DNA of 35,257 nt from IMG/VR virus record IMGVR_UViG_3300045950_000060, positions 1 through 35,257 of that record; one strand, 5' to 3'. A program made the position numbers and the translations under genes. The notes under the pieces were generated by a model. That model made no database searches. It worked only from the letters and a program-made list of their open reading frames with translations, and was not told the DNA's origin. Source of the DNA: a virus. Of the stretch, positions 9,545 through 26,426 are shown piece after piece (the stretch's first letter is position 1; each line of letters opens with the position of its first letter).

Positions 9545-9559
9545 GATCACCTCCCCCTC

Positions 9560-9766: not shown

Positions 9767-9821
9767 GGATCACCCACCTCACAATAAATTTTTTAGATAT
9801 GAAGTTTTGAATAGGAAATTA

Positions 9822-10045: not shown

Positions 10046-10066
10046 TGAGTGGAAGAGGTGAATTTA

Positions 10067-10906
10067 TTGTTATCCTTAAAAGATGAAATTCGTGAGCGGA
10101 TAAAAGCGATAAGAAATAAAAGCGGTTTATCAATGGCCAAATTTGGCGCAGTCATTGGGGTTTCTTCCGGGAATGTTAGCGATTGGGAAAGTGGAAAGGT
10201 TTTGCCGAATATATTGGCAATAGCAGCAATATCACAAAATTTTGGCATCTCAATTGATTGGATAATCACCGGTAAGGAATTTGATTTCCAGGATGCTTTG
10301 CCCCCCGACATAAAAAAACTAATTGAAGCCTTTAAACATCTTGGCGAAGATAACCAGCACGCCCTCAAAGCTTATACAGCCTTCCTGCTATCCTGTGAAC
10401 CTTCCGACGTATTAGAGCAAGCACTCAATAAGCTCCGCACCCCAGAAACCCCACCTGAACCTGAAACCATAAAAGAAGAACAAAACAAATATTTTGTACC
10501 CATCCTGGGCCATGCCGCTGCAGGGCTACCCATCCTGGTCGAAGAATTTATTGACGGTGTTGTCCCGGTTCCCAAAGATTTGTTTAAGGAAAAGGCATAT
10601 TTCATCAGGATAAAAGGTGACAGTATGATTCAGGCTGGTATTAATGATGGTTCCCTGGTGCTGATCAGACCACAACCGACAGTCGAAAATAACGAAATAG
10701 CCCTAGTTACGTATAACACAGAGGTAACGGTTAAGCGTTTTGTCCGCGAGAACAACTGTATCCGACTAAGGTCGGCGAACCCTGAATACAAGGACATTAT
10801 CATAAAAAATCTGGAAGCCGTAAGAATCTTGGGTAAAGTAATTAAAATTATCCCCCGTGAAGAGGCCAACCAGTTGACCAGACCCCTTTTTGAACAAGCC
10901 CAGTAA
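10067..10906 (+). CDS. LexA/CI-type phage repressor (HTH + S24 peptidase)
   Basis: This protein has 279 residues from TTG 10067, preferred because GAGGTG lies 6 nt upstream; a GTG at 10049 would add six residues. The N-terminal XRE-type HTH (AIRNKSGLSMAKFGAVIGVS) is followed by an acidic and Pro-rich linker and a C-terminal S24 domain. That domain shows an AAAGLP self-cleavage site (Ala-Gly), catalytic Ser in GDSMIQAGINDG and catalytic Lys in EVTVKRF. It keeps the prophage silent and should be cleaved when RecA filaments form, linking induction to DNA damage. Mu's own c repressor lacks this domain, so induction here is lambda-like. It opens a rightward unit ending at the terminator at 10956. 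Confidence 0.93.
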   Translation: MLSLKDEIRERIKAIRNKSGLSMAKFGAVIGVSSGNVSDWESGKVLPNILAIAAISQNFGISIDWIITGKEFDFQDALPPDIKKLIEAFKHLGEDNQHALKAYTAFLLSCEPSDVLEQALNKLRTPETPPEPETIKEEQNKYFVPILGHAAAGLPILVEEFIDGVVPVPKDLFKEKAYFIRIKGDSMIQAGINDGSLVLIRPQPTVENNEIALVTYNTEVTVKRFVRENNCIRLRSANPEYKDIIIKNLEAVRILGKVIKIIPREEANQLTRPLFEQAQ

Positions 10907-10955
10907 GCTTTTTATTTTTGGCGCTGTATGTGGTATTATCACCGCAGAGTAAGCC

Positions 10956-10984
10956 CCGCCCCGTATTATGAGGGCGGTTTTTTT
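10956..10984 (+). terminator. Rho-independent terminator after the repressor gene
   Basis: CCGCCC (10956-10961) pairs with GGGCGG (10972-10977) around a 10-nt loop and is followed by seven T residues. It ends the repressor transcript and separates it from the cargo gene. Confidence 0.85.
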
Positions 10985-11073
10985 CTTAGAAAATTTTTGT
11001 GTTTTAAGAAGGTGAAATATGGATTTATGTCTAATAATTACCGTAAACATAAGTCAAGGGGGAATGAATAACC

Positions 11074-11607
11074 ATGAAGAAGCCGCCCAAAAAACTAGTT
11101 ATTGGTGTATGGGTTATCCTTGCTGTAGTTGTAGCAATTGTTATGTTAGCAGACAATGCGCCTGAAAAATTCGGAAAGAACCAGGAAACGATTGATTATG
11201 TAAAAGGGATAGTGGGCGATAATGTTAAAAATGTCGATGTTATAGATCAGAACAACGGAACCTACGATGTAGTTGTCACTGCCAAGCAAACTTTAATAGG
11301 GTCTGGAACAGATTGGGGAATAGCTGCACAAACGTTTTTTAGCTTGTCAAAGGAGCTCTTCACAAAATATAAAGGCAAGGTGAACACCCTGGCATTTGAC
11401 CTAGAGGCTGAGGGACAAGATGGAAACGGTAACCCTACCAATATTCGATGGGCAAATCTAATGACAAATGGGAAAAAAGTATCAGCGGTAAATTGGGATA
11501 ATATTAGTTTGTTTCAATATACTCGGAACTTTGTAAAGATGTCTGCCTATAATCGTCAGGCTGAGGACTGGTTAGTTGAATATCAAAATGAATATCAAAA
11601 CAATTGA
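11074..11607 (+). CDS. Membrane-anchored exported protein, probable lysogeny cargo
   Basis: This 177-residue protein has an N-terminal KK-rich start then one hydrophobic helix (about 8-26, LVIGVWVILAVVVAIVML). A hydrophilic, probably extracytoplasmic domain follows with a beta-rich part (GTYDVVVTAKQTLIGSG) and many Asn/Asp residues. No cleavage motif is obvious, so it may stay as an anchor. It has its own ribosome site (AAGGGGG) and terminators on both sides, and is more AT-rich than the head and tail genes. This is the layout of a moron expressed in the lysogen. Superinfection exclusion or host-surface change is a guess; no family recognised. Confidence 0.75.
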   Translation: MKKPPKKLVIGVWVILAVVVAIVMLADNAPEKFGKNQETIDYVKGIVGDNVKNVDVIDQNNGTYDVVVTAKQTLIGSGTDWGIAAQTFFSLSKELFTKYKGKVNTLAFDLEAEGQDGNGNPTNIRWANLMTNGKKVSAVNWDNISLFQYTRNFVKMSAYNRQAEDWLVEYQNEYQNN

Positions 11608-12949: not shown

Positions 12950-14275
12950 TTATTTTATTTCCCCCGCAATCACTTCATACGCCTTACTTAATAGATCTAT
13001 TTTATTCACTTTGCCAGCTGTCACGAAAAAGTTGAGTTTACCGATTTTTTTCAGGTTATAGTTCAGGTCAAATGCAAACTTGTTTTTCTTACCGTCACTT
13101 GCGGTTGTGATAAACAAAAGATTGCCATGCTCGTTGTCAAAAAGAATAGCTTCGGGATTCCTTAATGTCTCCGGCAAACTTCGCAAATCCTGCAGGTCCA
13201 CCGGTGATACTTTAGGATCACGTTCGGCGTGGATGAGTTTTTTATCCATCGCCACAATGACCGGGTTATCAACCTGGATTTTTTTATTGGCCGTCAGCCA
13301 ATCAATAACGTCGTTTGACAGCCAGCCGGCCGTCGTCGTTTTCCCCTGCTTGGATAAGGCAGGTTTTTTTACGACCTCATTGACCCACTGGGAAAAGACA
13401 TGGTCCCTGGTGTCGGTGTGGGCCATCTCATCAATGAACTGTCTGCGAACCTCCGCAGGCAGTTTTTTTGCTTTCGCCCAGGCGGAAATATCAAGTTGGT
13501 GCTCGGCTTTTCCGGGGTTATAATTCCAGCCAGGATCAGGGGCCACAGTGATCAGTTTGCCGGTCATAGGATCGTGGGTTTTAAATCCAGTCACCGGCAC
13601 CACTTCACCGGTCCTCTTGGAGACCAGCGCCCGGCTTTCCACCATTCTGCCCTCCGAGTTTTTCACCATCAGCCCGCGTTCTTTAATATCCCCGCCGGGT
13701 AATGCCCGAACCCGGCACCGGCAGTTAAAGCCCAGGGGCGGGTAATGGGTCTCCCAGAAGGGGTCATCGTAGCGGAAGACTTGGCCGTTAAGCGCCCGGT
13801 GCGCCGGCCGGGTCCGCCTGTCCAAAACCGCTACATACTGCCAGTATGGCCGGTCATCGACGTTCTCTATCATAGTCCTATAGCGACCTGCCATGTAGTT
13901 AGTCTGTAGGTTAGTCCGGTAAATGGTTTTGAGTCGCCAGGGGGAACCAAGTTGTACTTCCTGGGCGCCCTGATCGTCGCCGACCATTACCCGGCCCCAC
14001 CACCCTTTGGCCTTAAGTCGCGGCTCCAGCTCCTTCCGGAACTGGTCGAAAGTAATCCCTTCATCAAGCGCCTTCTGCACCATATCTCGGATGTCCTGGA
14101 GGATATCCAGGCGCATAGCCTTGGCCACGGCAAAGGACCGACTGTGGGCAGACTGCCAGAGATCGTACCAGTCCCAGGTGAGGGCGTACCCTTTCCCTTT
14201 GAAATATTCGATGGCCTTCTCAGGCTTTAGGTTTAATGCATAGGTGAGGTCTATTTGTGCGGCTTTGTCCGGCAT
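12950..14275 (-). CDS. MuF-type head morphogenesis protein with C-terminal toxin-like domain
   Basis: This protein has 441 residues. Residues 1-195 are the Mu F/gp30 minor head domain: YRTNLQTNYMAGRY (119-132), DRRTRPAHRALNGQVF (about 152-167) and PPLGFNCRCRVRAL (179-192). Residues about 196-312 form a linker. Residues 313-441 look like a separate small alpha+beta domain (KLIHAERDPK, LPETLRNPEAILFDNEHGNL, KFAFDLNYNL). That resembles the PBECR (barnase/EndoU/colicin/RelE-like) nuclease domains commonly fused to MuF. F enters the procapsid, so a fused nuclease may be injected with the DNA. The head role is firm; the toxin assignment is by pattern only. Confidence 0.87.
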   Translation of the reverse strand: MPDKAAQIDLTYALNLKPEKAIEYFKGKGYALTWDWYDLWQSAHSRSFAVAKAMRLDILQDIRDMVQKALDEGITFDQFRKELEPRLKAKGWWGRVMVGDDQGAQEVQLGSPWRLKTIYRTNLQTNYMAGRYRTMIENVDDRPYWQYVAVLDRRTRPAHRALNGQVFRYDDPFWETHYPPLGFNCRCRVRALPGGDIKERGLMVKNSEGRMVESRALVSKRTGEVVPVTGFKTHDPMTGKLITVAPDPGWNYNPGKAEHQLDISAWAKAKKLPAEVRRQFIDEMAHTDTRDHVFSQWVNEVVKKPALSKQGKTTTAGWLSNDVIDWLTANKKIQVDNPVIVAMDKKLIHAERDPKVSPVDLQDLRSLPETLRNPEAILFDNEHGNLLFITTASDGKKNKFAFDLNYNLKKIGKLNFFVTAGKVNKIDLLSKAYEVIAGEIK

Positions 14276-14290
14276 ATCATCACCCTATCG

Positions 14291-15796
14291 TTAGTCATCA
14301 GCGGTAACATGGCCAAAGGCTTCGCTTAAGAAGATCATCTTTTGCAGCTGCTGTTCAATTTCGCCGGTGTCAAGCTGTGGATAAAGTTCCGCGAGCTTTT
14401 CCATAGCCTCCTGGTAGCTCCCGGACTCCTCAAAGAACTGGAATACAGGCTTCAGTACTGTTTCCATCTGTTTCTGCATCATCTCCGGGGAAAGAGATTC
14501 GATCAGGTCGTCGACAGCCTGCTGGCCGGGAAAAACCTCTTCTTCGGCGAACTGAGCCGTCAGGCCGGGCGGTGGGTTTGTGGCTCCGGTCGATTGGGCA
14601 CGGGTAATTTCTATATCTTCATCCTCGAAGCCGTAAGCTTTGCGGAAGTAAGCTTTGGTGAATTTCACTCCGGCATCCTTTGACAGAGTACCATCACGTT
14701 CGGCCAGGGTCTTGTCGACATCTTCTTCTTCGTACAAACCGAATACCGGCTGTTCACCGCTACCACCCCAATTAAGTTCAAATATCCACCCGATAAGCTG
14801 GTTGATGGTTGCCTCAACCAGCTTTTTGTCGCTGTCCACAATGTCTTTGCGGACAGTAAGGGCGGCATCCTCGTTACCCAGTTTGCCGGGCGTACTTTCA
14901 CCGGCGCCGGCGTGTCCTAAAAGAGCAGTGGAGATTTCGCTATTGGCTGTGTCGATAAGTGATTTATATAGTCCCACGCTGGCCCCCTTGCCGGCTGCCT
15001 CTTTCAATTCGACACTGGAGTCGTCCGGGATAGCCGCTACGGCGTCCTGTACCATCTGTTCAAGCATGTCCAGGAGGGCGTTAACTTCTTCCTTTTGTGC
15101 CCCGCGTGGGTGCTTACCTACAGCAAAAGGCATGCCGTATTTTTCGGCAAATGTGACCCAGAACCGCCAACCGCCTTTTTTAAATGTGACTGGCCAGAAG
15201 CACGATGACAATAGCGGTTCTCCATAGGGGTTATCATAACTGGCATTAAAGCGGGGAATCAGGAACTTCCTGGGGGGTAACTCTTCGCCTGTGCTGTAGT
15301 TGCCTTTTGTCCGGAAGCGCAGGCTGTTGTCTTCAGCGCCGAACACAAACCAACGCTGTGGCTTACCTATTACGTCGCGGGGGAAGATAAGCCCATCCCG
15401 GTTTTCCCATATTACTTCCAGAGGCTGGTAACCGAACAGGGGCGCCTCCAGTATCTCGGAGATAATTTGTTCAAGGTCCAGTCTCTTAAACAATTGCTCA
15501 ACGATCTTCACCTGGCGGCTCTTTGATTTGCCCCGGTCGATCTCCCATTCCAGTGACTTCACTCCCGCCTTGCGTGAGATAATTCCCGCTTTGACCCGGC
15601 TATCCACCTTCAGGTCGGTATAAACGGCAATGTCCTTGCCCATTTTCTTTAAAACCGGATCAGGATTAGGCAGGTACATGTTAAGCCCGTAGAAGTCGAC
15701 GGCCCGCTGCCGGGTGGCGATCTCGTCCGACAACCGGGCGCCGCCGTCGTTGAAACGGATGAATGTTTTATCGTCAATCCATAATCCTTTGGCCAT
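14291..15796 (-). CDS. Portal protein (DUF935, Mu gp29-like)
   Basis: This 501-residue protein is of the Mu gp29 portal family. Characteristic stretches are DLKVDSRVKAGIISRKAGVK, FGYQPLEVIWENRDG, KFLIPRFNASYDNPYGEPLL and KGGWRFWVTFAEKYGMPFAV. A STPGKLGNEDAALTVRKDIV block precedes the C-terminal helices. Portal dodecamers form the DNA gate at one capsid vertex and dock terminase. A Gln/Glu-rich helical C-terminus (about 415-490) is the usual variable tail. It is encoded 15 bp before MuF, as in Mu (29 then 30). Confidence 0.93.
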   Translation of the reverse strand: MAKGLWIDDKTFIRFNDGGARLSDEIATRQRAVDFYGLNMYLPNPDPVLKKMGKDIAVYTDLKVDSRVKAGIISRKAGVKSLEWEIDRGKSKSRQVKIVEQLFKRLDLEQIISEILEAPLFGYQPLEVIWENRDGLIFPRDVIGKPQRWFVFGAEDNSLRFRTKGNYSTGEELPPRKFLIPRFNASYDNPYGEPLLSSCFWPVTFKKGGWRFWVTFAEKYGMPFAVGKHPRGAQKEEVNALLDMLEQMVQDAVAAIPDDSSVELKEAAGKGASVGLYKSLIDTANSEISTALLGHAGAGESTPGKLGNEDAALTVRKDIVDSDKKLVEATINQLIGWIFELNWGGSGEQPVFGLYEEEDVDKTLAERDGTLSKDAGVKFTKAYFRKAYGFEDEDIEITRAQSTGATNPPPGLTAQFAEEEVFPGQQAVDDLIESLSPEMMQKQMETVLKPVFQFFEESGSYQEAMEKLAELYPQLDTGEIEQQLQKMIFLSEAFGHVTADD

Positions 15797-15892
15797 TTCT
15801 TAAACCTCACTTTTCACGTCGGCCCCGACGCTTTAAATTGCCCTGTAATCCACTTCTGTGTTGGTGCTATGTCCGTGACTAAGCGAAACAAC

Positions 15893-15933
15893 TTTTTAAA
15901 CGCTTTTAAAAACGTTTAAACGGGTTTTAAACG
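15893..15933. repeat. Cluster of TTTAAACG repeats
   Basis: TTTAAACG occurs at 15895-15902, 15915-15922 and 15926-15933, with a lengthened copy (TTTAAAAACG) at 15905-15914. Spacing is about 10-11 bp, near one helical turn. The cluster lies in the 130-bp non-coding gap between the 63-residue gene and the portal gene and overlaps the end of the former. Function unknown; the rest of the gap (15797-15894) shows nothing clear. Confidence 0.5.
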
Positions 15934-16118
15934 GGGTCTTGTGTTGAGGGTAACCCCTGTTTTTTGTGTTCGGCATCAAATCGGCCGGGTTTTGGTTTTT
16001 CTTTAATGATGACGCCCATGATCAGGTATTGGCACTTATTCCCCTTACGGTAGCATTTTTTGTCGCATTGTTTGCGGCTTACATTCCGGCTGTGATAACT
16101 ACATGCGCCAACCAGCAT
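15927..16118 (-). CDS. Small cysteine-rich protein, unknown
   Basis: This 63-residue protein has an ATG two bases after the terminase stop codon. It has four N-terminal cysteines (ACSYHSRNV, KQCDKKCYRKGNKCQY) that could bind zinc, then a hydrophobic stretch (LIMGVIIKE) and a polar tail. Mu carries a small zinc protein, Com, elsewhere, but the cysteine spacing differs, so it is not called Com. The ribosome site is weak (GGGG), so translation probably depends on coupling to the terminase. Confidence 0.5.
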   Translation of the reverse strand: MLVGACSYHSRNVSRKQCDKKCYRKGNKCQYLIMGVIIKEKPKPGRFDAEHKKQGLPSTQDPV

Positions 16119-16120
16119 AA

Positions 16121-17473
16121 TTAATACCCCGCAAGCATTTTTTGGCTGGCACGCCTGCCCCGGCTGGCAACGGTCACCGGTCCGGCATCACCACTGCCGG
16201 CATGCAGTGCCAAAGCCTTCGCCCAAAAGCGGTCAGCATGGCCGCCGGCGTCACTGGCCGCCACATCGAAACGGATATTTCCTGCCGCTGTGGTGATTTT
16301 CTTGACGCTGTGCAGGTCCTCGCGGGTAGCAAAGTCCTCCTCCATATAAACCGTCCGGTCCTCGAAATGTGTCCGCAGGTTATATGCCAGATCTTCCTTG
16401 ACTTTGCCGGAGAAGGTCACAGCCTCCACCCGGTACTTGCCAAATGCTTGCTGCGCCTCCTCGGCAAGCTGCATCCCTAAGCCGCTACCGTCGATTTCGG
16501 CACGCCGCATGCAGGGGTGCTTTAGTATGTCAAAAAGCATATCCCGCTGCATATGAAAAGGGGCGCGCTCCATGATGATCTGTGCCCGCTCATAAAAGAC
16601 CCGGCCAAGCTTTTGCTCCACATCGATGACGGTCAGGTCCTTCCTTCTGCCAATGTCAACCCCGACATAAAGGTCGCCTTCGGTGATGTGTTCCAACGGC
16701 ATCCGAATACCCTGCAGTTCACAGGCGCCAATCAGTTCATAAGTAAGAAAGGCGCTGGCCGCATCCACCGGGATACAGCAGTATTCCTGGAGCCAGGTGT
16801 CTTCGTCAGCACAAGAATCGTGGGCCTCTTTGACCCACGCGGCCCGTTCCTCCGGGGTGGCAGGCCGGCCATAGATTTTGTCTACCAGACCTTCCTCCAC
16901 GGCCAGTTCCAGGGGGGTAAAGTGGTGCGCCCATTTAAGCCGCCCTTTTTTAACGGCCTCGATGAACTTGTAGTACCGGCACTGTTTGCCGTTATGGGTG
17001 GAGAGGATGCGCAGGGGGAACCCCCAGGTGGTAACCGGCTTGGCGGCCGCCCAGAGCTTATCCGGGTCGTCATGGAAAGCGAACTCGTCCAGGATGACCT
17101 TACCGCCCTTGGAACGGAACGCTTTAGGGTTACTGGATAGAGCGTTGATGCGGACACCGTTGGAAAACTCGATGACAAAGGTCTTAATGTTCCGGTCGCT
17201 GTCCAGAACCTGGGAACCGAGGGACCGGGCCGCCCGGTCAAAAAGCTTGGCCCACTTTTCGCAATATAGGATGTATTCCTTTGCGGCACTTTCGTCAGCG
17301 GACGAAAACCAGACCGCCGGCACCTTGCCGGCTGCCGCGTCTCGAACATCTTCGTAACTTTGTACATATGTAGCGCCAATCCGCCGTGACTTCTCCCATA
17401 TTTTAACCGGGCTGTTATCCTGGAGCCAGCGCAGCTGATAAGGCAAAAAATATTTTGAGGAGCCGGGTTTCAT
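16121..17473 (-). CDS. Terminase large subunit (Mu gp28-like)
   Basis: This protein has 450 residues. A degenerate N-terminal Walker A (WEKSRRIGATYVQSYE) is the form seen in Mu-type terminases. Walker B is GKVILDEFAFHDD, and a coupling motif follows near LRILSTHNG. The C-terminal RNase H-like nuclease has candidate metal ligands in YVGVDIGRRKDL, RAEIDGSGLGMQLAEE and DAGGHADRFWAKALAL. It cuts and pumps phage DNA into the procapsid; Mu-type enzymes package integrated copies with flanking host DNA. It overlaps the small terminase gene by 4 bp. Confidence 0.93.
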   Translation of the reverse strand: MKPGSSKYFLPYQLRWLQDNSPVKIWEKSRRIGATYVQSYEDVRDAAAGKVPAVWFSSADESAAKEYILYCEKWAKLFDRAARSLGSQVLDSDRNIKTFVIEFSNGVRINALSSNPKAFRSKGGKVILDEFAFHDDPDKLWAAAKPVTTWGFPLRILSTHNGKQCRYYKFIEAVKKGRLKWAHHFTPLELAVEEGLVDKIYGRPATPEERAAWVKEAHDSCADEDTWLQEYCCIPVDAASAFLTYELIGACELQGIRMPLEHITEGDLYVGVDIGRRKDLTVIDVEQKLGRVFYERAQIIMERAPFHMQRDMLFDILKHPCMRRAEIDGSGLGMQLAEEAQQAFGKYRVEAVTFSGKVKEDLAYNLRTHFEDRTVYMEEDFATREDLHSVKKITTAAGNIRFDVAASDAGGHADRFWAKALALHAGSGDAGPVTVASRGRRASQKMLAGY

Positions 17474-17877
17474 AGCCCGAGCACCTCCTGTTCAATGAGT
17501 TTGATGACGTCTTCGGTGAGGCCGGTCGGCTTATCGGTTTCCTTCCGGGCCGCCACTTCCTCATAGTCTTTAACTTTTGTCAACATTGGGAGGAGCCTGG
17601 TGAGGGTATAAAGCCGGCCGGTGTCTACCTTCTCTCCGGCCGCCATGTCAGCTGTAATGCTGCTCATTAATTTCCGCGCAAACTCGTAAAGCTCTTCGTG
17701 AAATGACTGCTTGCTGCGCATATATTGCAGGCGTTTGGTCTCCCAGTCACCTTCATCCTTCCAGGTGCGGACGGTTTTTTCCGCCAGGCGCAGGCGGCTG
17801 GCAATCTCGGCGAGGGTGTACTGCTCGACAACATATAGCCGTTCGGCTTCGTTGAAATATTGCGCCTTTTTAGCCAT
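17470..17877 (-). CDS. Terminase small subunit-like protein (DUF1804-type)
   Basis: This 135-residue protein has an N-terminal HTH (ERLYVVEQYTLAEIASRLRL, AEKTVRTWKDEGDWETKR) followed by a helical oligomerisation region. This is the build of phage small terminases and of the Mu gp27-position protein. Small terminases recognise the packaging start site and load the large subunit. The 4-bp overlap with the large terminase supports the assignment. Confidence 0.82.
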   Translation of the reverse strand: MAKKAQYFNEAERLYVVEQYTLAEIASRLRLAEKTVRTWKDEGDWETKRLQYMRSKQSFHEELYEFARKLMSSITADMAAGEKVDTGRLYTLTRLLPMLTKVKDYEEVAARKETDKPTGLTEDVIKLIEQEVLGL

Positions 17878-18118
17878 CGAGGGCCGCCCCCAGGTCTTCG
17901 ATTTTTCCTTTCAGTTCCCGCATGCGCGCCACCACCTTCTGCAGTTGATTCATGGCGACGGCTGCCTGATCAACCCGGAGGGTGGTCACATCCTCAGTGT
18001 AAGGGGACAACTCGTTGCGGATCACCACGATGAGGCCGGACGCCTGCAGGTCCAGTTCGCGGTATTCTTTTCGCCAGTCGGCCAATTGACCTTTAGCCTG
18101 TAAAATCTCGTGTTTCAT
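17870..18118 (-). CDS. Small coiled-coil protein of the head operon
   Basis: This 82-residue helical, charged protein (QLADWRKEYRELDLQASGLI, LQKVVARMRELKGKIEDLG) has no membrane segment. It overlaps both neighbouring genes by a few bases. By position it corresponds to the small Mu gp26-like genes before terminase, whose roles are unknown. Family not recognised. Confidence 0.68.
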   Translation of the reverse strand: MKHEILQAKGQLADWRKEYRELDLQASGLIVVIRNELSPYTEDVTTLRVDQAAVAMNQLQKVVARMRELKGKIEDLGAALDG

Positions 18119-18390
18119 GCGCGGTTACTCTCCTTTTTGGTCAGTGGACAGAATTGGTTGGTGTCGATCTTGGTCTCGACGCGGGCCAGCATACCGGTGT
18201 GGTACTGGACCGTTTCCAGCATATCCTTGAGGAGTTCAAAATTACGCTCTTCCCGCTGCTGCTGCGCATCCATAAGGCGTTGCCACTGTTGCACCTGACT
18301 GCGGTGATAGAGATACCAGATCAGGAAGATTAGCGCGGATATACCGAGCTGCTTGATAAGGTCGAGCCAGAACGAAGGTTGATCTAACAT
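18115..18390 (-). CDS. Small membrane protein with coiled-coil tail (gp25-like position)
   Basis: This protein has 91 residues from ATG 18390, behind AGGAGG; upstream in-frame codons lack such a site and run into the promoter region. A single membrane helix (LIKQLGISALIFLIWYLYH, about 8-26) is followed by a long polar helix (QQQREERNFELLKDMLETVQ). It is the first gene of the leftward late unit. Mu gp25-type proteins have the same plan. It could be a holin partner or spanin-like protein, but nothing decides this. Confidence 0.7.
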   Translation of the reverse strand: MLDQPSFWLDLIKQLGISALIFLIWYLYHRSQVQQWQRLMDAQQQREERNFELLKDMLETVQYHTGMLARVETKIDTNQFCPLTKKESNRA

Positions 18391-18534
18391 TGGTAGCCTC
18401 CTGTTTTCAAAATGTTTTTGCCGCAACCCCAATGTAAACCATCCATATTTAAAAAACAAAAGTATATTACATGAGAACTGGAAGATGAAACCTGATACAT
18501 TGGTGCTAGATTGAGCAAAGGGGGTGACTGAACG
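18391..18534. promoter_or_regulatory. Divergent late control region with mirrored activator motifs
   Basis: Between the leftward head unit and the rightward lysis/tail unit, CCAATGTA stands at 18429-18436 on + and at 18503-18496 on -. Midway, at 18463-18469, are overlapping -10-like boxes: TATATT reading right and TAATAT reading left. Each motif lies about 42 bp upstream of the expected start of the promoter it faces, where Mor-family activators bind, and in the same orientation to it. Neither promoter has a good -35 box. Mor control is inferred. Confidence 0.6.
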
Positions 18535-19335
18535 ATGTTAGCACAAGGTTCTAGGGGTGCTGATGTGAAGGAGTTGCAAAATAGCCTGAAGGCGCTTGGT
18601 TTCAATCCCGGTCCTGCCGATGGCATGTTTGGGCCTCTCACCACCGCCGCAGTCAAAGCTTTTCAGCAAAAGCATGGATTGCTGGTGGATGGGATTGCCG
18701 GGCCTGTAACCCAGGCTAAAATTCGGGAAGCTGTGACTGTAAAATCTCTGCCTTTAGCTGGTTTAACAGTATTGCTTGATAAGGGCCATGAAGGCTTAGG
18801 GAAAGGCTTAGACCCCGGTGCAGTTGACGGCAAGAATGATGATGATATTTATACAGCGGAAGCAATCGTCGTGGATACTCTGGGGAACATAGTGGCCGAT
18901 GAGTTGCGGGCCGCCGGCGCTAAAGTTATTGAGACCCGCGAGGGAAACGAACAGCTCACCTGGGACAGGCGTAAACAGATAATTGCAACCAGTGGCGCCC
19001 AGGTCAGTATCAGTTTGCATACCAACTCCGGAAACGCCAAGGCATCCGGCATTGAAACTTTTGCCTATACCAGTAAGAAATCAGTTTTGTTAGCCGCCTG
19101 TATTCAAGGCCAGGTAATTCTTGCGACCGGCGCTAAAAACCGTGGCGCTAAGTTTGCTAATTTCTTCATGGTCCGGGTGCCGGAGAAATATGGCATGAAA
19201 GCTGTGCTTATTGAGGTTGGCTTTATCAGTAATCCGGGGGAAGAAGTTAGGCTTAACGACCCTGCTTATTTAAAAAGGATCAGCGCCGGGATTAAAGCCG
19301 GGTTGATTGCAGCCAAAAACAAAGGGAGCATCTAA
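18535..19335 (+). CDS. Endolysin: N-acetylmuramoyl-L-alanine amidase
   Basis: This 266-residue protein has an N-terminal peptidoglycan-binding type 1 domain (about 1-65, VKELQNSLKALGFNPGPADG ... GPVTQAKIRE), then an Amidase_3 zinc domain (about 75-262). Candidate ligands and catalytic residues are H85 (LDKGHEG), E109 (YTAEAIV), H162 (SISLHTNS) and E227 (VLIEVGFISN). It has no signal peptide, so it needs the holin encoded next. It cleaves the bond between muramic acid and the stem peptide at lysis. Strong AAAGGGGG site; first gene of the rightward late unit. Confidence 0.93.
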   Translation: MLAQGSRGADVKELQNSLKALGFNPGPADGMFGPLTTAAVKAFQQKHGLLVDGIAGPVTQAKIREAVTVKSLPLAGLTVLLDKGHEGLGKGLDPGAVDGKNDDDIYTAEAIVVDTLGNIVADELRAAGAKVIETREGNEQLTWDRRKQIIATSGAQVSISLHTNSGNAKASGIETFAYTSKKSVLLAACIQGQVILATGAKNRGAKFANFFMVRVPEKYGMKAVLIEVGFISNPGEEVRLNDPAYLKRISAGIKAGLIAAKNKGSI

Positions 19336-19462
19336 AAAAGATCAGGAGGTGAATTAGGTCACAAAGCTGGAGGTGGTAGTCATGTAGACGAATGCCGCAA
19401 TCGCCCGCAATGAATAGCCGTAACGGCAGTAATACTTTTATATTAATTTCGGAGGTATGCCA

Positions 19463-19960
19463 ATGAAAAAAGTGTTCAGTTTCATCAGTCTTATCCTGGT
19501 TGTGACCTTGTTGGTTTTCGCGTTCACATTCCCCGCCTTGGCCGCGCCGGTTGACCCGCCGGTCCTTGGCTGGCTCCATGCAGATTCAACCTTTGTCCTG
19601 AGCATCGCCTTAATGGTGGGTGCCCTGGTGGTTGTGATGCGGTGGTCAAAAGATTCCAAGGTTATGACAACGAGAAAAAGGTTTAGGATTATTCGATTTT
19701 TAACACTCATTCTGGTTCTGGCGTTTGCATTTCCCGCCTTAGCGGAAACGGGAGCCACTGCGGAGCCGGTGACATTTACCGATTGGTTCAAGGAAAACCT
19801 GACATATATTCTTGCGGCGGCCCTGGCAGTTAGCGAGCTTCTGGCAGTAACACCGTGGTTTAAAGGCAATGGAATTTTGGACAGCATTATTAAAGCACTT
19901 AACTTTTACCGGGGAAAAAATCGGCGGGAGCCGGGTGATGGTTCAGCGGAGGATAACTGA
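19463..19960 (+). CDS. Holin-like membrane protein with internal duplication
   Basis: This protein has 165 residues from ATG 19463 (behind GGAGG). Four hydrophobic segments are arranged as two similar halves. Each begins with a signal-like helix ending in FPALA (VFAFTFPALAAP; VLAFAFPALAETG), then a short loop with Trp, a second helix, and a W..D/K turn. A basic, charged tail ends the protein. Position right after the endolysin supports a holin. The 120-bp gap before it holds only an unconvincing 24-codon frame whose stop overlaps this start. Confidence 0.72.
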   Translation: MKKVFSFISLILVVTLLVFAFTFPALAAPVDPPVLGWLHADSTFVLSIALMVGALVVVMRWSKDSKVMTTRKRFRIIRFLTLILVLAFAFPALAETGATAEPVTFTDWFKENLTYILAAALAVSELLAVTPWFKGNGILDSIIKALNFYRGKNRREPGDGSAEDN

Positions 19961-19962
19961 TA

Positions 19963-21078
19963 ATGAGCAAGGGTATTAAGGGGAACTGGATTGAAATCTT
20001 CCGCGCCGGGACGCATGTGGACAGCGAGGGAAGGACCCGCGAATGGGCTGAAGCGGACCTGGACGCCATCGTAAATAAGTATGATCCCTCCCGCCACGAA
20101 GCCCCCATCGTGGTTGGCCACCCGAAGGATAACTCCCCCGCCTTCGGCTGGGTCGAGGGACTCAAGCGGGTTGGGAAGAGCCTGCATGCCAAATTTAAGC
20201 AGGTTCTTCCCGAGTTTGAGGAAGCTGTTAAAGAGGGTCGATATAAAAAACGGAGCATTTCCCTGTATCCTGACCTGACCCTGCGTCACGTCGGGTTCCT
20301 CGGCGGGATGCCGCCGGCTGTTAAGGGGTTGGCGGACATCGCCTTCAATGAGAACGATGAAGCCGTCACGATTGAGTTCGGTGACTACCGGGTAAGCACT
20401 GTAGGTCGGATTATCCAGCGTCTGCGGGACTTCGTTATCGACAAGTTTGACCTAGAGACTGCCGACCGCATCGTCTCCCCCTGGGAGATCGAGCAACTGA
20501 CAGCCCCCCCGGAACCGGAAATTAGCGACAATGCTCCCCAGTCAGCATTTCAAGAGGAGGACGATATGAAAAATATCGAAGAACTTCAGGCCCAGCTCAC
20601 CGCCAAAGAGGCCGAGCTGGCCCAGTTTGCGGAGAAAGACCAGGCCAAGCAGGCCGAGATTGATGCCCTTAAGGCACAAATCACAAAAATTCAGGCCGAT
20701 AACCGCCGGGCCGAGTTTACCGCCTTCTGCGACCAGTTGAAGGCAGAGGGGAAACTGACCCCGGCGATGATCCCCCAGGTGCAAAATTTCATGGAGACAC
20801 TGCATGCCGCCGGCGAATATGAATTCGCCGAGGGCGACCAGACTGTCAAAAAGCCGGCCTTGGAAGCCTTCAAAGAGTTCCTCCAAAAGCTTCCCAGGCA
20901 GGTGGAATTCGGCGAGCACGCCACGAGGGGGAAGGCTGGTGGTGGCCAGGTAGATTTAGATGATCCGCAGGCCATCGCCAAGGCTGCAGCCGAGTACAAA
21001 GAAACTGAAGAAAAAGCCGGCCGGACAATTAGCATCACCGAGGCCGTCAAACATGTCACTCAAGGAGGTACCCAATGA
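19963..21078 (+). CDS. Mu I-like prohead protease with C-terminal scaffold
   Basis: This 371-residue protein has an N-terminal protease domain of the Mu gpI family (about 1-150). It shows IEIFRAGTHVDSEGRTREWA, the EAPIVVGHPKDNSPAFGWVE block (His in VGHP) and YKKRSISLYPDLTLRHVGFL (Ser in KKRSIS). The conserved H and S are the likely catalytic pair of this serine protease. Residues 202-371 are a charged coiled coil (ELQAQLTAKEAELAQF) that can be made separately as scaffold. It cuts scaffold and capsid during prohead maturation. Confidence 0.9.
   Translation: MSKGIKGNWIEIFRAGTHVDSEGRTREWAEADLDAIVNKYDPSRHEAPIVVGHPKDNSPAFGWVEGLKRVGKSLHAKFKQVLPEFEEAVKEGRYKKRSISLYPDLTLRHVGFLGGMPPAVKGLADIAFNENDEAVTIEFGDYRVSTVGRIIQRLRDFVIDKFDLETADRIVSPWEIEQLTAPPEPEISDNAPQSAFQEEDDMKNIEELQAQLTAKEAELAQFAEKDQAKQAEIDALKAQITKIQADNRRAEFTAFCDQLKAEGKLTPAMIPQVQNFMETLHAAGEYEFAEGDQTVKKPALEAFKEFLQKLPRQVEFGEHATRGKAGGGQVDLDDPQAIAKAAAEYKETEEKAGRTISITEAVKHVTQGGTQ
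20566..21078 (+). CDS. Nested in-frame scaffold protein (Mu Z-like)
   Basis: An ATG at residue 202 of the protease gene follows GAGGAGGACGAT, a near-ideal ribosome site, and would give a 170-residue product identical to the C-terminal part of the protease. Mu makes its scaffold Z from an internal start in gene I in the same way, so the scaffold here is probably made in excess over the protease. The long coiled coil suits a scaffold. Confidence 0.75.
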   Translation: MKNIEELQAQLTAKEAELAQFAEKDQAKQAEIDALKAQITKIQADNRRAEFTAFCDQLKAEGKLTPAMIPQVQNFMETLHAAGEYEFAEGDQTVKKPALEAFKEFLQKLPRQVEFGEHATRGKAGGGQVDLDDPQAIAKAAAEYKETEEKAGRTISITEAVKHVTQGGTQ

Positions 21079-21494
21079 ACAATCCGGGACTGATCAAGAA
21101 TTTCAAAGCTGAGACTGCGGTAGCTGCCTACCGCATCGTCAAGTTCGGCGCCAGCGACGATACCGTCGCCCAGGCGGCCGCTAACACCGACGCCATGATG
21201 GGCGTCAACGGGGCGCTCGCCGGCGATGCAGGAAAAAGAGTGGACATTGTATTATCAGGCGTAGCCGAAGTAGAATACGGCGGTAACATAACACGCGGCG
21301 ACCTGCTCACCGCCGATGCCAACGGTCGGGCCGTTGCCGTTACGCGCCATACCCATACTGAAAATACCGCCGGCGCTTATACCCAGAACGCCACCACCGC
21401 TGCGGCAGGTAATGTCCGCGTCATCGGCGTGGCAATGGTTTCCGGTGTCCTGGGGGATATCGGCTCTGTCAACATTTCACCGTCGTTTGCGTAA
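21075..21494 (+). CDS. Capsid decoration/cement protein (DUF2190-like)
   Basis: This 139-residue protein starts with ATGA overlap to the gene before it, behind GGAGG. The small beta fold, rich in Ala, Gly and Val (YRIVKFGASDDTVAQAA, VLSGVAEVEYGGNITRGDLL, VRVIGVAMVSGVLGDIGSV), is typical of DUF2190/cement proteins that stud the capsid. The Mu gene at this place is of unknown role. It stands directly before the major capsid gene, as usual. Confidence 0.8.
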   Translation: MNNPGLIKNFKAETAVAAYRIVKFGASDDTVAQAAANTDAMMGVNGALAGDAGKRVDIVLSGVAEVEYGGNITRGDLLTADANGRAVAVTRHTHTENTAGAYTQNATTAAAGNVRVIGVAMVSGVLGDIGSVNISPSFA

Positions 21495-21522
21495 CGAATA
21501 AATTTAAACAGGAGGATTAAAC

Positions 21523-22452
21523 ATGCCCAATGCACCGTTTCCTATTCAACCGGAGCTGACCGCTATTGCCATCGGCTACCGGAACACCCGTCTCATTGCT
21601 GACGAGGTCCTTCCCCGCGTCCCTGTCGGTAAACAGGAGTTCAAGTACTTAAAGTACAACCTGGCCGACGGCTTCACTCTCCCCGACACCAAGGTTGGCC
21701 GGAAATCCAAGCCCAACGAGGTAGAGTTCTCGGCTACCGAACAAACAGACAGTGCCGAGGACTTCGGTCTCGACGATCCCATTCCGCAGGCGGACATTGA
21801 CAATGCGCCCCCCAACTATGATCCTGTCGGCCGGTCTGTAGAGGGAGTCACTGATCTGATTCTCCTTGACCGTGAAGTCAGGACTGCTAACCTGGTCTTT
21901 AACGCTGCCAACTATGGCGCTGCCAACAAGACCACTCTGTCAGGGACCAGCCAGTTCAATGATTTCGCTAACTCTGACCCTATCGCCACCATTATGAACG
22001 CCCTCGATGCCTGCATCATGCGGCCCAACATAATGACCATTGGCCGGGCGGCTTTCTCTACCCTGGTCCGCCACCCGAAGATTGTCAAGGCTGTCCTTGG
22101 TAACTCCGGCGATTCCGGCATCGCCCGGCGGCGGGATTTGGCCGAGTTATTTGAGCTTGAAGACGTTCTCGTCGGCGAGGCTTTCCTGAACACTGCCAGG
22201 AAAGGGCAGCCGGTCGCCCTCTCCAGGGTCTGGGGTAAACACATCTCCCTCCTTTACCGCGACAAAAACGCCGATACCCGTGGAAGGGTAACCTTCGGTT
22301 TTACCGCCCAGTGGGGCAACCGCGTCGCCGGGGCTCAACCCGATGGTGACATCGGCCTGCGCGGCGGTCAGCGTGTTCGGGTTGGCGAAAGTGTGAAGGA
22401 ACTCATTGTCGCTCCTGATGTGGGCTACTTCATCCAGAACGCAATAGCGTAA
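21523..22452 (+). CDS. Major capsid protein
   Basis: This 309-residue protein begins PNAPFPIQPELTAIAIGYRN and contains LIADEVLPRVPVGKQEFKYL, the N-terminal pattern of many phage major capsid proteins. A segment near ILLDREVRTANLVFNAANYG and the APDVGYFIQNAI C-terminus also fit. An HK97-like fold is expected. Several hundred copies form the shell after protease maturation. Strong AGGAGG site. A hairpin stands directly after the gene. Confidence 0.88.
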   Translation: MPNAPFPIQPELTAIAIGYRNTRLIADEVLPRVPVGKQEFKYLKYNLADGFTLPDTKVGRKSKPNEVEFSATEQTDSAEDFGLDDPIPQADIDNAPPNYDPVGRSVEGVTDLILLDREVRTANLVFNAANYGAANKTTLSGTSQFNDFANSDPIATIMNALDACIMRPNIMTIGRAAFSTLVRHPKIVKAVLGNSGDSGIARRRDLAELFELEDVLVGEAFLNTARKGQPVALSRVWGKHISLLYRDKNADTRGRVTFGFTAQWGNRVAGAQPDGDIGLRGGQRVRVGESVKELIVAPDVGYFIQNAIA

Positions 22453-22484
22453 GACAACCATCGGCCATATCCGGCCTAAGCTAA

Positions 22485-22519
22485 AGGGACCGTGGAGCCT
22501 AACCGGCAACATGGTCCCT
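22485..22519 (+). other. Hairpin after the capsid gene
   Basis: AGGGACC (22485-22491) pairs with GGTCCCT (22513-22519) around a 21-nt loop. No T-run follows, so it is not a plain terminator. It may protect the 3' end of capsid mRNA or lessen read-through to the connector genes. Confidence 0.5.
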
Positions 22520-22544
22520 ATATCAAAAAAAAGGAGGCTTACCC

Positions 22545-22835
22545 ATGCCGAAATACCCTGTCCTTGAACCGTTGGAGCATGACCAAAAACCCTATGTCCC
22601 CGGTTCTGCCGTAGAATTGACCGAAGAGCAGGCGGCCCCGCTGCTGGCTGTTAAGGTCATCGGTGAGCCGGTGGCTGATAGCACTCCTGCCCGGCCCAAT
22701 GTAGCGGAGACCATCAAGTTAGTCGAGGCTGCCGAGAACCTGGAGGAGTTGGACAAACTCGCCGCCGGCGAAGATCGCAAAACTGTCCTTGAAGCGATTG
22801 AAAAGCGCCGGGCCGCCTTGAGTGAGGCGAAGTAA
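22545..22835 (+). CDS. Small head-associated protein (Mu gp35-like position)
   Basis: This 96-residue protein starts at ATG behind AAGGAGG. The N-terminal part (VLEPLEHDQKPYVPGSAVEL, EEQAAPLLAVKVI) is a small beta unit common in genes between capsid and connector genes in Mu-like phages. The C-terminal half is a helical bundle (AENLEELDKLAAGEDRKTVL). Precise role unknown. Confidence 0.75.
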   Translation: MPKYPVLEPLEHDQKPYVPGSAVELTEEQAAPLLAVKVIGEPVADSTPARPNVAETIKLVEAAENLEELDKLAAGEDRKTVLEAIEKRRAALSEAK

Positions 22836-22838
22836 GCC

Positions 22839-23276
22839 ATGCCTTACTGCACCCTGACAGACCTTAAGAACGCCATCCCGGAGGAGACCCTTGCCCTTCT
22901 CACTAACGATTCCAGCACGCCCACCACAGTTGTTGATGCGGTGGTCAATGCAGCGATTGCCGACGGCGATGATGTGATCGACGGTTACTTGCGTGGCAGG
23001 CATACCCTGCCTCTAGCCGTCACCCCTAAGTTGATCCGCCGGCTCTCGGTTAACCTGGCTATCTATAATATCTACACCCGCCGGCCCGAGGTCGAACCAC
23101 CCCAGAACGTGAAAGACCGCCACGAGGCGGCCCTGAAACTATTGGAGAAAATCCAGAAGGGCGAAGTTGCCCTTGGTATTGAAACCGGCAGCGCTCCGCC
23201 ATCGCCGGCGGAATATAAGACTAACAAGACCAGTGCTGACCGGTTCTTTAATAAAGACATGCTTGACCGGTATTAA
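22839..23276 (+). CDS. Head-tail connector protein (DUF1320, Mu gp36-like)
   Basis: This 145-residue protein begins MPYCTLTDLKNAIPEETLAL, then VVNAAIADGDDVIDGYLRGR and PKLIRRLSVNLAIYNIYTRR, the DUF1320 pattern. Related connectors form a ring beneath the portal. The C-terminal tail is polar and probably disordered until assembly. It is packed 3 bp after the gene before it. Confidence 0.9.
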   Translation: MPYCTLTDLKNAIPEETLALLTNDSSTPTTVVDAVVNAAIADGDDVIDGYLRGRHTLPLAVTPKLIRRLSVNLAIYNIYTRRPEVEPPQNVKDRHEAALKLLEKIQKGEVALGIETGSAPPSPAEYKTNKTSADRFFNKDMLDRY

Positions 23277-23287
23277 GGGGTGATTTT

Positions 23288-23770
23288 GTGCTGATCACAG
23301 AAATTGAGGATGCCTTGATCGCCCGCCTGAAGAGCAAGGTCCCACAGCTCCAGGTAGATTCCTTCCCGGACAAGCCGTCTGAGTTCCGCCTTCTACACCC
23401 GAAAGGGGCGATACTCGTGCGATACCAAGGCTCGAAATACTCTGAGCCGCAAACAATGGGAGCCGTGGTGCAGGGTCGGGCCGTCGAGTTTGACATTATT
23501 TTAGTTATGCGGAACCTCCGGGATCATGCCGGTATCTACGCACACCTGGACGCCGTACGGCTGGCCCTGACCGGTTATCGGGTACCGGGATGCGAAAAGT
23601 TTTATCTTACCCGCGAGGAATTCATCGACGAAACTGACGGCATCTGGCAGTACGGTATCAGAGTAGCCACCGAACTCCCCAATGTGGAACTGCCGGAGGA
23701 CGAGGTGCTGCCGTTGCTTAAGAAGGCCACAGCTACAGACCAATACGGAACTGCGGAGGTAATCAAATGA
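23288..23770 (+). CDS. Head-tail joining protein (DUF1834, Mu gp37-like)
   Basis: This 160-residue protein starts at GTG behind AAGGGG. The N-terminal part (LITEIEDALIARLKSKVP) and core (VQGRAVEFDIILVMRNLRDH, GIYAHLDAVRLALTGYRVPG) follow the DUF1834 pattern. The DETDGIWQYGIRVATELPNV ending also fits. It is expected at the tail terminus or neck. Its stop overlaps the next start (ATGA). Confidence 0.88.
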   Translation: MLITEIEDALIARLKSKVPQLQVDSFPDKPSEFRLLHPKGAILVRYQGSKYSEPQTMGAVVQGRAVEFDIILVMRNLRDHAGIYAHLDAVRLALTGYRVPGCEKFYLTREEFIDETDGIWQYGIRVATELPNVELPEDEVLPLLKKATATDQYGTAEVIK

Positions 23771-23988
23771 GTGAAAAGCTTTACAAATACAACGGCCCTG
23801 TGACAAGTGTTAACCTGGGTAACGGTGAAGGCGTTACTTTAACCCCCGGCCAGGAAGTGACACTGCCAGCCGACGATGAGTATGTTAAAACTCTGGTCGC
23901 CCTGAACCGACTGACAGAAGTCCCGAAAAAGACCCAGGCCGGGAAAAACAGGGCAACCGTAAGTGAGGAGGTTAACAATGCCAGCTAA
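23767..23988 (+). CDS. Small tail-associated protein (Mu gp38-like position)
   Basis: This 73-residue beta protein (YKYNGPVTSVNLGNGEGVTL, GQEVTLPADDEYVKTLVALN) is followed by a basic tail. It sits between the joining protein and the sheath, where Mu has gp38 (DUF2635), and may be its counterpart. Its last codons overlap the start of the sheath gene. Function unknown. Confidence 0.7.
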   Translation: MSEKLYKYNGPVTSVNLGNGEGVTLTPGQEVTLPADDEYVKTLVALNRLTEVPKKTQAGKNRATVSEEVNNAS

Positions 23989-25426
23989 TTTTTTGCATGG
24001 TGTGGAAACGATTCAGATAACTACCGGCGCGCGCCCCATCACCGGCGTTAAGAGCGCCGTCATAGGCATCATCGGCACCGCGCCTATATTCGACTGTGCT
24101 ACTGCTGACCAGACCAAGAATGTGCCGGTCCAGATACTGTCCGCCACGGACGCGGCGAAATACGCCGGTAAGGACCGCACCGGTTTCACCATCCCCCAGG
24201 CTCTTGATGCCATCTTCACCCAGGGAAATGGCCCCATCGTCATCATGATCAATGTCTTGGACCCCGCCGTCCACAAAACTAACGTGGCGAGTGAGGTCAA
24301 GGCTCTCGGTAGCGACGATAAACTCACCCTGGCCCACCCTGGTGTGGCCAGCGTCGTAGTAAAAAACCAGGCCGGCACCACCACTTATGTGCTGAATACT
24401 GACTACACTCTGGATGCTGCCAACGGGGTCATCACCCGGATTACCGCTGGCACTATTACCGCCGGCCAAACGCTCAATGTCGCTTATGACTGGGCTGACC
24501 CCTCCAAGGTGCTGGCGGCCGACATTATTGGCACCACTGATGGAAGCGGTAACCGGACCGGCCTCAAGGCATTCCAGGACTGCTATGCTAAGTTCGGTTT
24601 CTATCCGAAGATGCTCATTGCCCCCGGTTTTTCTACACTCACCGGGGTACTGACCGAGATGGATAGCATTGCTGCAAAAGTCCGGGCGATGGCCCTGGTG
24701 GACTTCGCGAGCGGCACCACCGTAAGCCAGGCGATTACCGCGCGGGGCGCCGGCGGGTCCATGAACACGAGCAGTAAACGGGTACTCCCGTGCTATCCTT
24801 ACGTGAAACGGCTCAACCCCTCTACAAATGCGGAGGAGCTTGTCCCGTACAGTTCCTATGTGGCCGGGGCGATCGCCGCCAAAGATAATGACAAGGGTTA
24901 CTGGTGGAGTCCTTCCAATACCGAGATCAAGGGTATCACCGGCGTGGAACGGCAGCTTACCGCTGTAGTCAATGACCCTAACAGTGAGGTAAACCAACTC
25001 AACAGCAACGGTATTATGACCGTATTCAACAGCTTTGGGACCGGGTTCCGGACCTGGGGGAACCGATCGGCGGCCTACCCGACCTACACCACGCCGGATA
25101 ACTTCATCTGTGTGCAGCGGACGGCCGATATTATCCACGAGTCGGTGGAATATGCCATGCTCCAGTTCCTGGACTTCCCTATCAATAACGCCCTGATCGA
25201 TAGCGTTACGGAGTCTGTCAACTCTTTCATCCGTACCCTCATCGGCCGGGGGGCGCTTATTGACGGTAAGTGTATATATGACCCGGCTAAAAACCCGACC
25301 ACGGAGATTTCCGCCGGGCACCTCACCTTTAACCTGGAATTCATGCCGCCAGTGCCGGCCGAGCGGATCACCTTTGAAAGCTACATCAATATTAACCTGC
25401 TCAAGAAACTGGCTGGCGGCCAGTAA
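23978..25426 (+). CDS. Tail sheath protein (Mu L-like)
   Basis: This protein has 482 residues from ATG 23978 behind GAGGAGG; an upstream in-frame GTG lies within that site. Sheath signatures are FLHGVETIQITTGARPITGV, KSAVIGIIGTAPIF, the ALDAIFTQGNGPIVIMINVL block, and near the end YAMLQFLDFPINNALIDSV with VPAERITFESYININLLKKL. The subunits form the contractile sheath around the tube and drive it into the cell. It is the largest structural gene besides the tape measure and fibre. Confidence 0.94.
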   Translation: MPANFLHGVETIQITTGARPITGVKSAVIGIIGTAPIFDCATADQTKNVPVQILSATDAAKYAGKDRTGFTIPQALDAIFTQGNGPIVIMINVLDPAVHKTNVASEVKALGSDDKLTLAHPGVASVVVKNQAGTTTYVLNTDYTLDAANGVITRITAGTITAGQTLNVAYDWADPSKVLAADIIGTTDGSGNRTGLKAFQDCYAKFGFYPKMLIAPGFSTLTGVLTEMDSIAAKVRAMALVDFASGTTVSQAITARGAGGSMNTSSKRVLPCYPYVKRLNPSTNAEELVPYSSYVAGAIAAKDNDKGYWWSPSNTEIKGITGVERQLTAVVNDPNSEVNQLNSNGIMTVFNSFGTGFRTWGNRSAAYPTYTTPDNFICVQRTADIIHESVEYAMLQFLDFPINNALIDSVTESVNSFIRTLIGRGALIDGKCIYDPAKNPTTEISAGHLTFNLEFMPPVPAERITFESYININLLKKLAGGQ

Positions 25427-25439
25427 TGGAGGGTAGACA

Positions 25440-25961
25440 ATGCCAAAGATAGAGATTAACAGAGTCACCAACGCCAACGTCTATATGGATGGTAATAGCT
25501 TCCTGGGGCGCGCCGAAGAGATCACCCTTCCCCAGGTGAAACAGGTTATGGCGGAACACAAGGCCCTGGGCATGGTAGGCAAGGCCGAGTTTTTCAGCGG
25601 CATCGACAAGATGGAGACTAAAATCAAGTGGAATTCCTACTATTCCGACGTGCTGAAAAAAGCCGCCAACCCTGTTAAGGCAGTTCAGCTTCAGGCCAGG
25701 GCTTCGCTGGAGACCTATACCGGCCAGGGCCGCGTAAAAGAAGTACCGGTGGTTGTCCACTTGGCTGGCACGTTCAAGGAGTTCCCGCTGGGAGCGCTTA
25801 AGCAGCATGACAATGTGGAGCTGGAGACTACCATGAACGTGTACTATATCAAACTGGTAGTTGACGGCCAGGAGATCGTCGAGATTGATGTCCTTGGGAA
25901 TATCTATAAGGTCGACGGCGTGGATATTCTGGCAGACTATCGGAAGAATATCGGTGGCTAA
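25440..25961 (+). CDS. Tail tube protein (Mu M / P2 FII-like)
   Basis: This 173-residue protein begins MPKIEINRVTNANVYMDGNS, with EITLPQVKQVMAEHKALGMV and the ending NIYKVDGVDILADYRKNIGG, typical of P2 FII/Mu M tube proteins. These form stacked hexameric rings inside the sheath. It immediately follows the sheath gene. A strong GC hairpin lies just after its stop. Confidence 0.93.
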   Translation: MPKIEINRVTNANVYMDGNSFLGRAEEITLPQVKQVMAEHKALGMVGKAEFFSGIDKMETKIKWNSYYSDVLKKAANPVKAVQLQARASLETYTGQGRVKEVPVVVHLAGTFKEFPLGALKQHDNVELETTMNVYYIKLVVDGQEIVEIDVLGNIYKVDGVDILADYRKNIGG

Positions 25962-25967
25962 TTAATT

Positions 25968-25987
25968 GGGGCGGCGCTGCCCGCCCC
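25968..25987 (+). other. GC-rich hairpin after the tail tube gene
   Basis: GGGGCGG (25968-25974) pairs with CCGCCCC (25981-25987) around a 6-nt loop. No T-run follows. It resembles the hairpin after the capsid gene and may keep the abundant tube mRNA stable while lowering chaperone expression. Confidence 0.6.
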
Positions 25988-26016
25988 AGGTTATAAATTA
26001 AAAGGGGGATGCGAAA

Positions 26017-26340
26017 TTGAATATTGTAATAAAAAAGTCGGATAACCAGCTCCGGCCCAAAGAGATTGAAATCAGAGAACCCCTTATGGAGGACGTAATT
26101 CTCGCTGAACGTGTTACTGGTAAGACGGACGGCGTGGAATTCCAGCTTGCTCTTTTGTCCCAGGTAGGAACCTTTGACGGCCAGAAGCTGCCGATGGAGG
26201 AACTGCGGAGGCTGTCGATGAAGGATTTTTTATCTATTGCGGAACAATTGTTGGGTACGGATATTGCGGCACTCCTGAGGGAGTTGGTCGGGCAGTCCTC
26301 GGCCTCGTCCGCGACGGCGGATTCGGATACGAATCAGTAA
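26017..26340 (+). CDS. Tail assembly chaperone (Mu gp41 / P2 E-like)
   Basis: This 107-residue acidic helical protein starts at TTG behind AAGGGGG. The core (KEIEIREPLMEDVILAERVT, LRRLSMKDFLSIAEQLLG) is the usual one of tail tape-measure chaperones. A slippery T TTT TTA lies at 26226-26232 and an open -1 frame continues past the stop, so a longer form is probably made as well. The two products coat the tape measure while the tube assembles. Confidence 0.85.
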   Translation: MNIVIKKSDNQLRPKEIEIREPLMEDVILAERVTGKTDGVEFQLALLSQVGTFDGQKLPMEELRRLSMKDFLSIAEQLLGTDIAALLRELVGQSSASSATADSDTNQ

Positions 26341-26426
26341 AGAAAATGGCGGTAAGCGAGTTTGTTTACTGGCTCGGCCACTTAAACGATTATCTTAAAG
26401 AGGTGAAGCCTGATGATGGGGAGTAA
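26226..26426 (+). other. Programmed -1 frameshift site and E'-like extension
   Basis: In the chaperone frame, GAT TTT TTA forms the heptamer T TTT TTA. After a -1 slip the reading frame stays open from 26232 to the TAA at 26424-26426, adding 64 codons for a 136-residue product. The end of the extension (GFGYESVKKMAVSEFVYWLG) resembles the EF..WL motif of E' extensions in P2-like phages. The extension overlaps the tape-measure start. A later slip cannot be excluded, because the early part of the extension looks less protein-like. Confidence 0.65.

Follow-up and report, generated by a model that had tools for sequence, protein, structure and literature searches.

Predicted outward late promoters around one shared activator site in the divergent late-gene gap of a Mu-like phage

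The window, by which we mean the whole 35,257-nucleotide stretch of DNA analyzed here, encodes a transposase together with its partner transposition protein, and therefore we treat it as a Mu-like phage. Its late genes form two divergent blocks, separated by a gap of 144 bp (18391–18534) that is bounded by an ATG at 18390 on the minus strand and by an ATG at 18535 on the plus strand. The early genes (repressor-like, transposase, partner, Gam-like and Mor-like; 47–11600) share their strand with the leftward late block. The Mor-like gene is located at the left end of the contig, which may be a fragment or a permuted copy. The genes and predicted control elements are as follows.

47–391, minus strand: Mor/C-like late activator gene, presumed binder of the central site (phrog_836; profile match to Mor/C structures)
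9059–9550: repressor-like gene
12950–18118, minus strand: remaining typed leftward operon (PHROGs matches), with genes at 17870 (unknown), 17470 (small terminase), 16121 (large terminase), 14291 (portal) and 12950 (minor head protein)
18115–18390, minus strand: small membrane/holin-like gene, first of the leftward late operon (phrog_23321, function unknown in PHROGs; relatives L003–L009)
18431–18436 (read 18436 to 18431), minus strand: predicted leftward late-promoter −10 box TACATT, lying 30 bp from 18466 as the mirror image of the right box
18454–18478, no strand: predicted shared Mor-like activator site, centre 18466 (half-site matrix; modest score, imperfect dyad)
18461–18471: core of the predicted activator site, AGTATATTACA (counterpart in L003, TGTATATTACA)
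18496–18501, plus strand: predicted rightward late-promoter −10 box TACATT (best symmetric outward solution; CTGATACATTGG kept in L003)
18535–19335, plus strand: endolysin gene (PG-binding and Amidase_3), first of the rightward late operon
19457–32700, plus strand: remaining rightward operon (PHROGs matches, ORF list), in the order small unknown gene, head protease, scaffold, major head protein, connectors, sheath, tape measure and baseplate

Within the gap, the 8-mer CCAATGTA is found at 18429–18436 (+) and at 18503–18496 (−), with its midpoint at 18466, and two central boxes, TATATT (18463–18468, +) and TAATAT (18469–18464, −), lie at that midpoint. An earlier sequence-only reading of this DNA had reported all of these motif and box coordinates, and they are exact. 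It had also stated that −35 boxes are lacking; we agree, as a search of both strands between 18380 and 18545 returned no full sigma-70 −35/−10 promoter. The 8-mer occurs four times in the window, compared to an expected 0.86, and the two copies outside the gap pair are intragenic. A 31-nt stretch of the tape-measure gene (27418–27448, −) is 84% identical to part of the gap, probably by chance. A search of the gap for RNA structures found no Rfam family, and a search of annotated-phage DNA with the window returned no match.

We quantified the symmetry by comparing the 144-bp gap to 20,000 dinucleotide shuffles of its sequence. A perfect 8-bp mirrored pair appeared in 11.3% of the shuffled gaps (P ~0.11), a mirrored pair with two-strand boxes at its centre, as in the sequence-only reading, in 0.65% (P = 0.0065), and a mirrored pair whose arms carry an outward TAnnnT starting 30 ± 1 bp from the centre in 0.075% (P = 0.00075), where the 30-bp rule was derived from related phages and not from the window. 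Because a mirrored 8-mer is common in shuffled gaps, symmetry alone is weak evidence, and it is the relatives that decide how the gap should be read.

Using the holin-like protein and the large terminase as queries, we collected over 200 related loci; a query with the amidase endolysin retrieved no relatives. Where both the protease and terminase blocks could be typed, they were divergent in 113 loci and on one strand in 17, counts that include some duplicates. About 100 related phages share the divergent layout, with the holin, terminase and portal genes pointing one way and the protease, capsid and tail genes the other. Scans of their divergent gaps for inverted repeats found many strong mirrored sequences, differing in sequence between phages. 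In 27 of 46 gaps, against about 3.8 expected, the best outward −10-like boxes on the two sides lay equally far from the repeat centre, whereas the inward control yielded equidistant boxes in 9 of 46 (2.7 expected), five of them from one clade. Kinship among the phages inflates these counts, and consequently the later tests were carried out on clusters.

An unsupervised scan of 73 sequence clusters placed the peak distance between palindrome and box at exactly 30.0 bp. A mirrored-promoter model, with a site centred 30 bp upstream of each box, was significant (p ≤ 0.025) in 30 of 72 gap clusters when the promoters faced outward and in 4 of 72 when they faced inward. In the relatives, the two predicted late promoters therefore face outward from the dyad, and the family-wide spacing puts the predicted activator site at about −42. 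The sequence-only reading had proposed mirrored divergent late promoters; the mirror symmetry stands, and their inward orientation is not supported.

The relatives have two forms of this arrangement. One has a single shared dyad and −10 boxes 58–61 bp apart (L012, L183, L022, L176, L104, L090, L094, L026 and L229), both boxes starting 30 bp (29–31) from the dyad's centre. The other has a mirrored pair of sites, with a distance of about 30 bp between each site and its box (L170, L096, L145, L105 and L117, mostly Melainabacteria phages). On a TerL tree, the single-site phages (box separation 58–61) occupy several deep branches around the window, and the two-site form belongs mainly to one clade. 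Other gaps contain different repeats. The divergent gap of L004/L005 has two near-identical 25-bp palindromes, GTGCACGGTT...AACCGTGCAC, separated by 8 bp; the outward boxes of L004 lie 40 bp from the centre and fit the 30-bp rule less neatly than those of other phages. The gap of L021 contains tandem GGACAGGAGT and GTGTCC-type repeats and 17-bp mirrored arms 102 bp apart.

When the outward geometry is applied to the window, the best symmetric solution is centred on 18466, at 30.0 and 30.0 bp from two identical boxes (TACATT/TACATT); the second-best uses TAGATT. Here too, outward −10 boxes are found 29–31 bp from one centre between the terminase/portal and protease/capsid blocks. TACATT agrees with four of the six consensus bases, and the rightward box belongs to an extended −10 element (TGaTACATT, from 18493) that is kept in L003. 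With each box at −12 to −7, the predicted starts are near 18508 (+) and 18424 (−), the dyad is at −42 of both, and the leaders would be about 27 nt (rightward) and 34 nt (leftward) long.

A half-site matrix, built only from 12 relatives and with the consensus GTTCAGgAGAat outward from the centre, ranked 18466 first among 130 gap positions and 49th among 35,217 window positions. With L229 removed from the matrix, 18466 was still first in the gap, and 29% of shuffled gaps contained a score at least as high. No other site of this matrix score in the 35 kb has TAnnnT boxes 29–31 bp away on both sides. The full mirrored-promoter model was not significant in the window (p = 0.49) or in L003 (p = 0.29).

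Since the promoters of the relatives face outward, we favour reading CCAATGTA as the complementary strand of the −10 boxes, TACATTGG. Read outward in this way, the mirrored 8-mers would be two −10 boxes and the central TATATTA would lie within a weak predicted activator site. Overall, we consider it probable that the window carries outward promoters with a shared central activator site. The sequence-only reading had taken CCAATGTA for the activator site and the centre for the promoter; these roles are most likely swapped, as the relatives' promoters face outward and the family site matches the centre. It had also described overlapping −10 boxes. The predicted outward −10 boxes start 60 bp apart and do not overlap, and its reason for expecting alternating expression of the two operons consequently falls. 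Its suggestion that a Mor-like activator acts near −43 is supported; the predicted centre lies at −42 of both predicted starts.

Searches for further close relatives by the neighbouring gene and by a gapped DNA pattern returned only one contig, L003. In this relative the centre is retained, as is CTGATACATTGG, again 30 bp away. On the left, the 8-mer reads AAAGCGTA, which matches at four of eight positions, and the left TACATT is absent. A 12-bp insertion duplicates part of the centre, and a leftward candidate box, TAGGAT, lies 62 bp from the right box. The sequence-only reading had expected related phages to keep both motifs and had named loss of their symmetry as evidence against itself: the right motif and the centre are kept, and the loss of the left 8-mer goes part of the way toward that refutation. 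L003 alone is not decisive, because it is also compatible with the 26-nt motif-to-box spacing of that reading. The endolysin genes next to the gap (18535–19335 in the window, 4115–4885 in L003) are about 33% identical over 184 amino acids, and the neighbouring genes are 48–98% identical; this pattern resembles the exchange of a module next to the control region.

The protein encoded at 47–391 matches the late transcriptional activator family phrog_836 (E = 7e-9). Its match to the Pfam Mor family (PF08765; E = 0.003) scored 17.9 bits, or 17.3 bits in a second search, below the cut-off of 24.9, and therefore we call it Mor/C-like and not a proven member. Nine other records exceed the Pfam Mor cut-off. 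A profile of the nine-member group matches Mu Mor (1rr7, E = 9e-5) and Mu C (9l0x, E = 4e-4); its two top-scoring matches are designed proteins, over 24 residues. One search found Mor-like genes in 16 of 30 records and another in 20 of 45; they are present in many of the longer records, and many of the remainder are fragments. In an informal comparison of recognition helices and sites across about 25 phages, those with GAAC and GACA sites differed in their helix residues. We do not count this comparison as evidence, because some reading frames were wrong, the Mor gene of L104 is on a separate contig and there was no formal test. Literature searches for Mor cryo-EM studies and for work on Mu-like prophages of Melainabacteria gave no results.

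We weighed three other explanations of the gap. If the activator bound CCAATGTA, at about −42 of two promoters that point inward, overlap and have the −10 boxes TATATT and TAATAT (18463–18469), the two late operons would be mutually exclusive. TATATT agrees with five of the six consensus bases, the two-strand arrangement of the central boxes is rare in shuffled gaps (P = 0.0065), and the 26-nt spacing between motif and box is held on both sides in L003 by compensating indels. However, the symmetry in the relatives is outward, the left motif of L003 is degenerate, its 12-bp insertion parts the two central boxes, and the centre has a counterpart in the family whereas no counterpart of CCAATGTA as an activator site was seen. 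An inward arrangement is unlikely on this balance. The mirrored 8-mer could also be a functionless product of chance, with the late promoters elsewhere in the gap, such as at the rightward TAGATT at 18507. This too we find unlikely, and slightly more so: a mirrored 8-bp pair is found in 11% of shuffled gaps, TAGATT is the box of the second-best symmetric solution and the left arm is lost in L003, but the exact 30-bp spacing, the identical boxes, the central matrix match and the conserved right arm all agree on one centre.

The central dyad might instead be an operator for a repressor or a host protein, and not a Mor-like activator site, in which case the outward promoters would be constitutive or repressed. 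One would sooner expect a repressor site to overlap the boxes, the centre is at −42, the position of Mor-type activators, and Mor-like genes recur in many longer records; −35 boxes were also not found in 18380–18545. Even though the binding protein is putative and the phage has a repressor-like gene (9059–9550), we regard an operator as very improbable.

Outward promoters around a shared activator site resemble several known systems in part. The Mu Mor dimer recognizes two 5-bp inverted repeats within a 16-bp element whose centre is at −43.5, and it takes the place of the −35 box, which the promoter lacks (PMC4390567); its footprint together with polymerase extends from −56 to +14 and from −61 to −59 (PMC4287176). 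As at Mu Pm, the predicted arrangement combines a related activator protein and a dyad for a dimeric activator with −10 boxes that have no usable −35 box (18380–18545) (PMC4390567, PMC4287176); compared to the −43.5 position, the geometry fits, the dyad is weak and the start is itself predicted. However, Pm is a single one-way promoter that lacks the TGn extension seen on the rightward box, whereas in this gap two late promoters pointing apart appear to depend on a single dyad at about −42. The lys, I, P and mom promoters of the Mu late genes are likewise activated by a dimer of the Mor family, C, just upstream of the −35 position, but they are four separate promoters (PMC4461284), while the two operons of the window appear to have a common region of initiation. 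C also acts on a divergent pair, momP1/momP2, where, in the account cited in PMC4287176, it shifts polymerase between the promoters; the geometry here suggests equal activation.

In phage P2, the divergent late promoters PP and PO, controlled by Ogr, serve the PQ and ONMLKRS operons, and in phage Smp131, PP′ and PO′ are listed on the same TGT-N12-ACA palindrome (nt 4398–4381 and 4381–4398) (PMC3931495). The likeness is one palindrome between opposed late operons. The P2-type activator Ogr is a zinc-finger protein, whereas the activator predicted here is of the Mor/C family. We rejected P2-type Ogr control: Ogr/Delta (PF04606) had no match in the window or in five related records, some of them fragmentary, and of the three TGT-N12-ACA matches in the window none is in the gap.

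We propose that the gap at 18391–18534 is the late-control region of this phage. One Mor/C-type dimer, probably of the 47–391 protein, would bind the dyad centred on 18466, from which two activator-dependent sigma-70 promoters would point outward, each with its TACATT −10 box starting 30 bp away, so that the same bound dimer would be at about −42 of both. The rightward promoter would express the endolysin, protease, capsid and tail genes; the leftward promoter, the holin-like, terminase, portal and minor head genes. On this view, CCAATGTA and its mirrored copy would be the two −10 boxes, each read from the strand opposite to its promoter. On the scale of the Mu Mor and polymerase footprint, polymerases on either side of a single dyad would share DNA near the activator, though not at the −10 boxes, and some competition between the two promoters is possible; the symmetric geometry suggests that both are equally activated.

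More tentatively, and with the doubt that this extension deserves, one Mor-type dimer may fire both late promoters at once, or may force a choice of polymerase through an overlapping activator/alpha-CTD zone, and in either way set how much packaging-motor and portal protein is made relative to the proteins for capsid, tail and lysis. The layout would be old, and in a large clade of phages from gut Melainabacteria its one site would have become two mirrored ones. A literature search of limited scope found no report of a shared site of the Mor type. The parts are ordinary; their conserved arrangement is unusual.

The rule of a dyad centre, 30 bp and a −10 box in both directions would locate the late-control region across a large group of Mu-like phages, most of them uncultured, and would also predict which protein binds which sequence. 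It also makes a question testable: can one activator dimer serve two polymerases simultaneously? The comparison suggests that P2-like (Ogr) and Mu-like (Mor) phages, with unrelated activators, may have reached the same shared-site solution for divergent head-gene operons.
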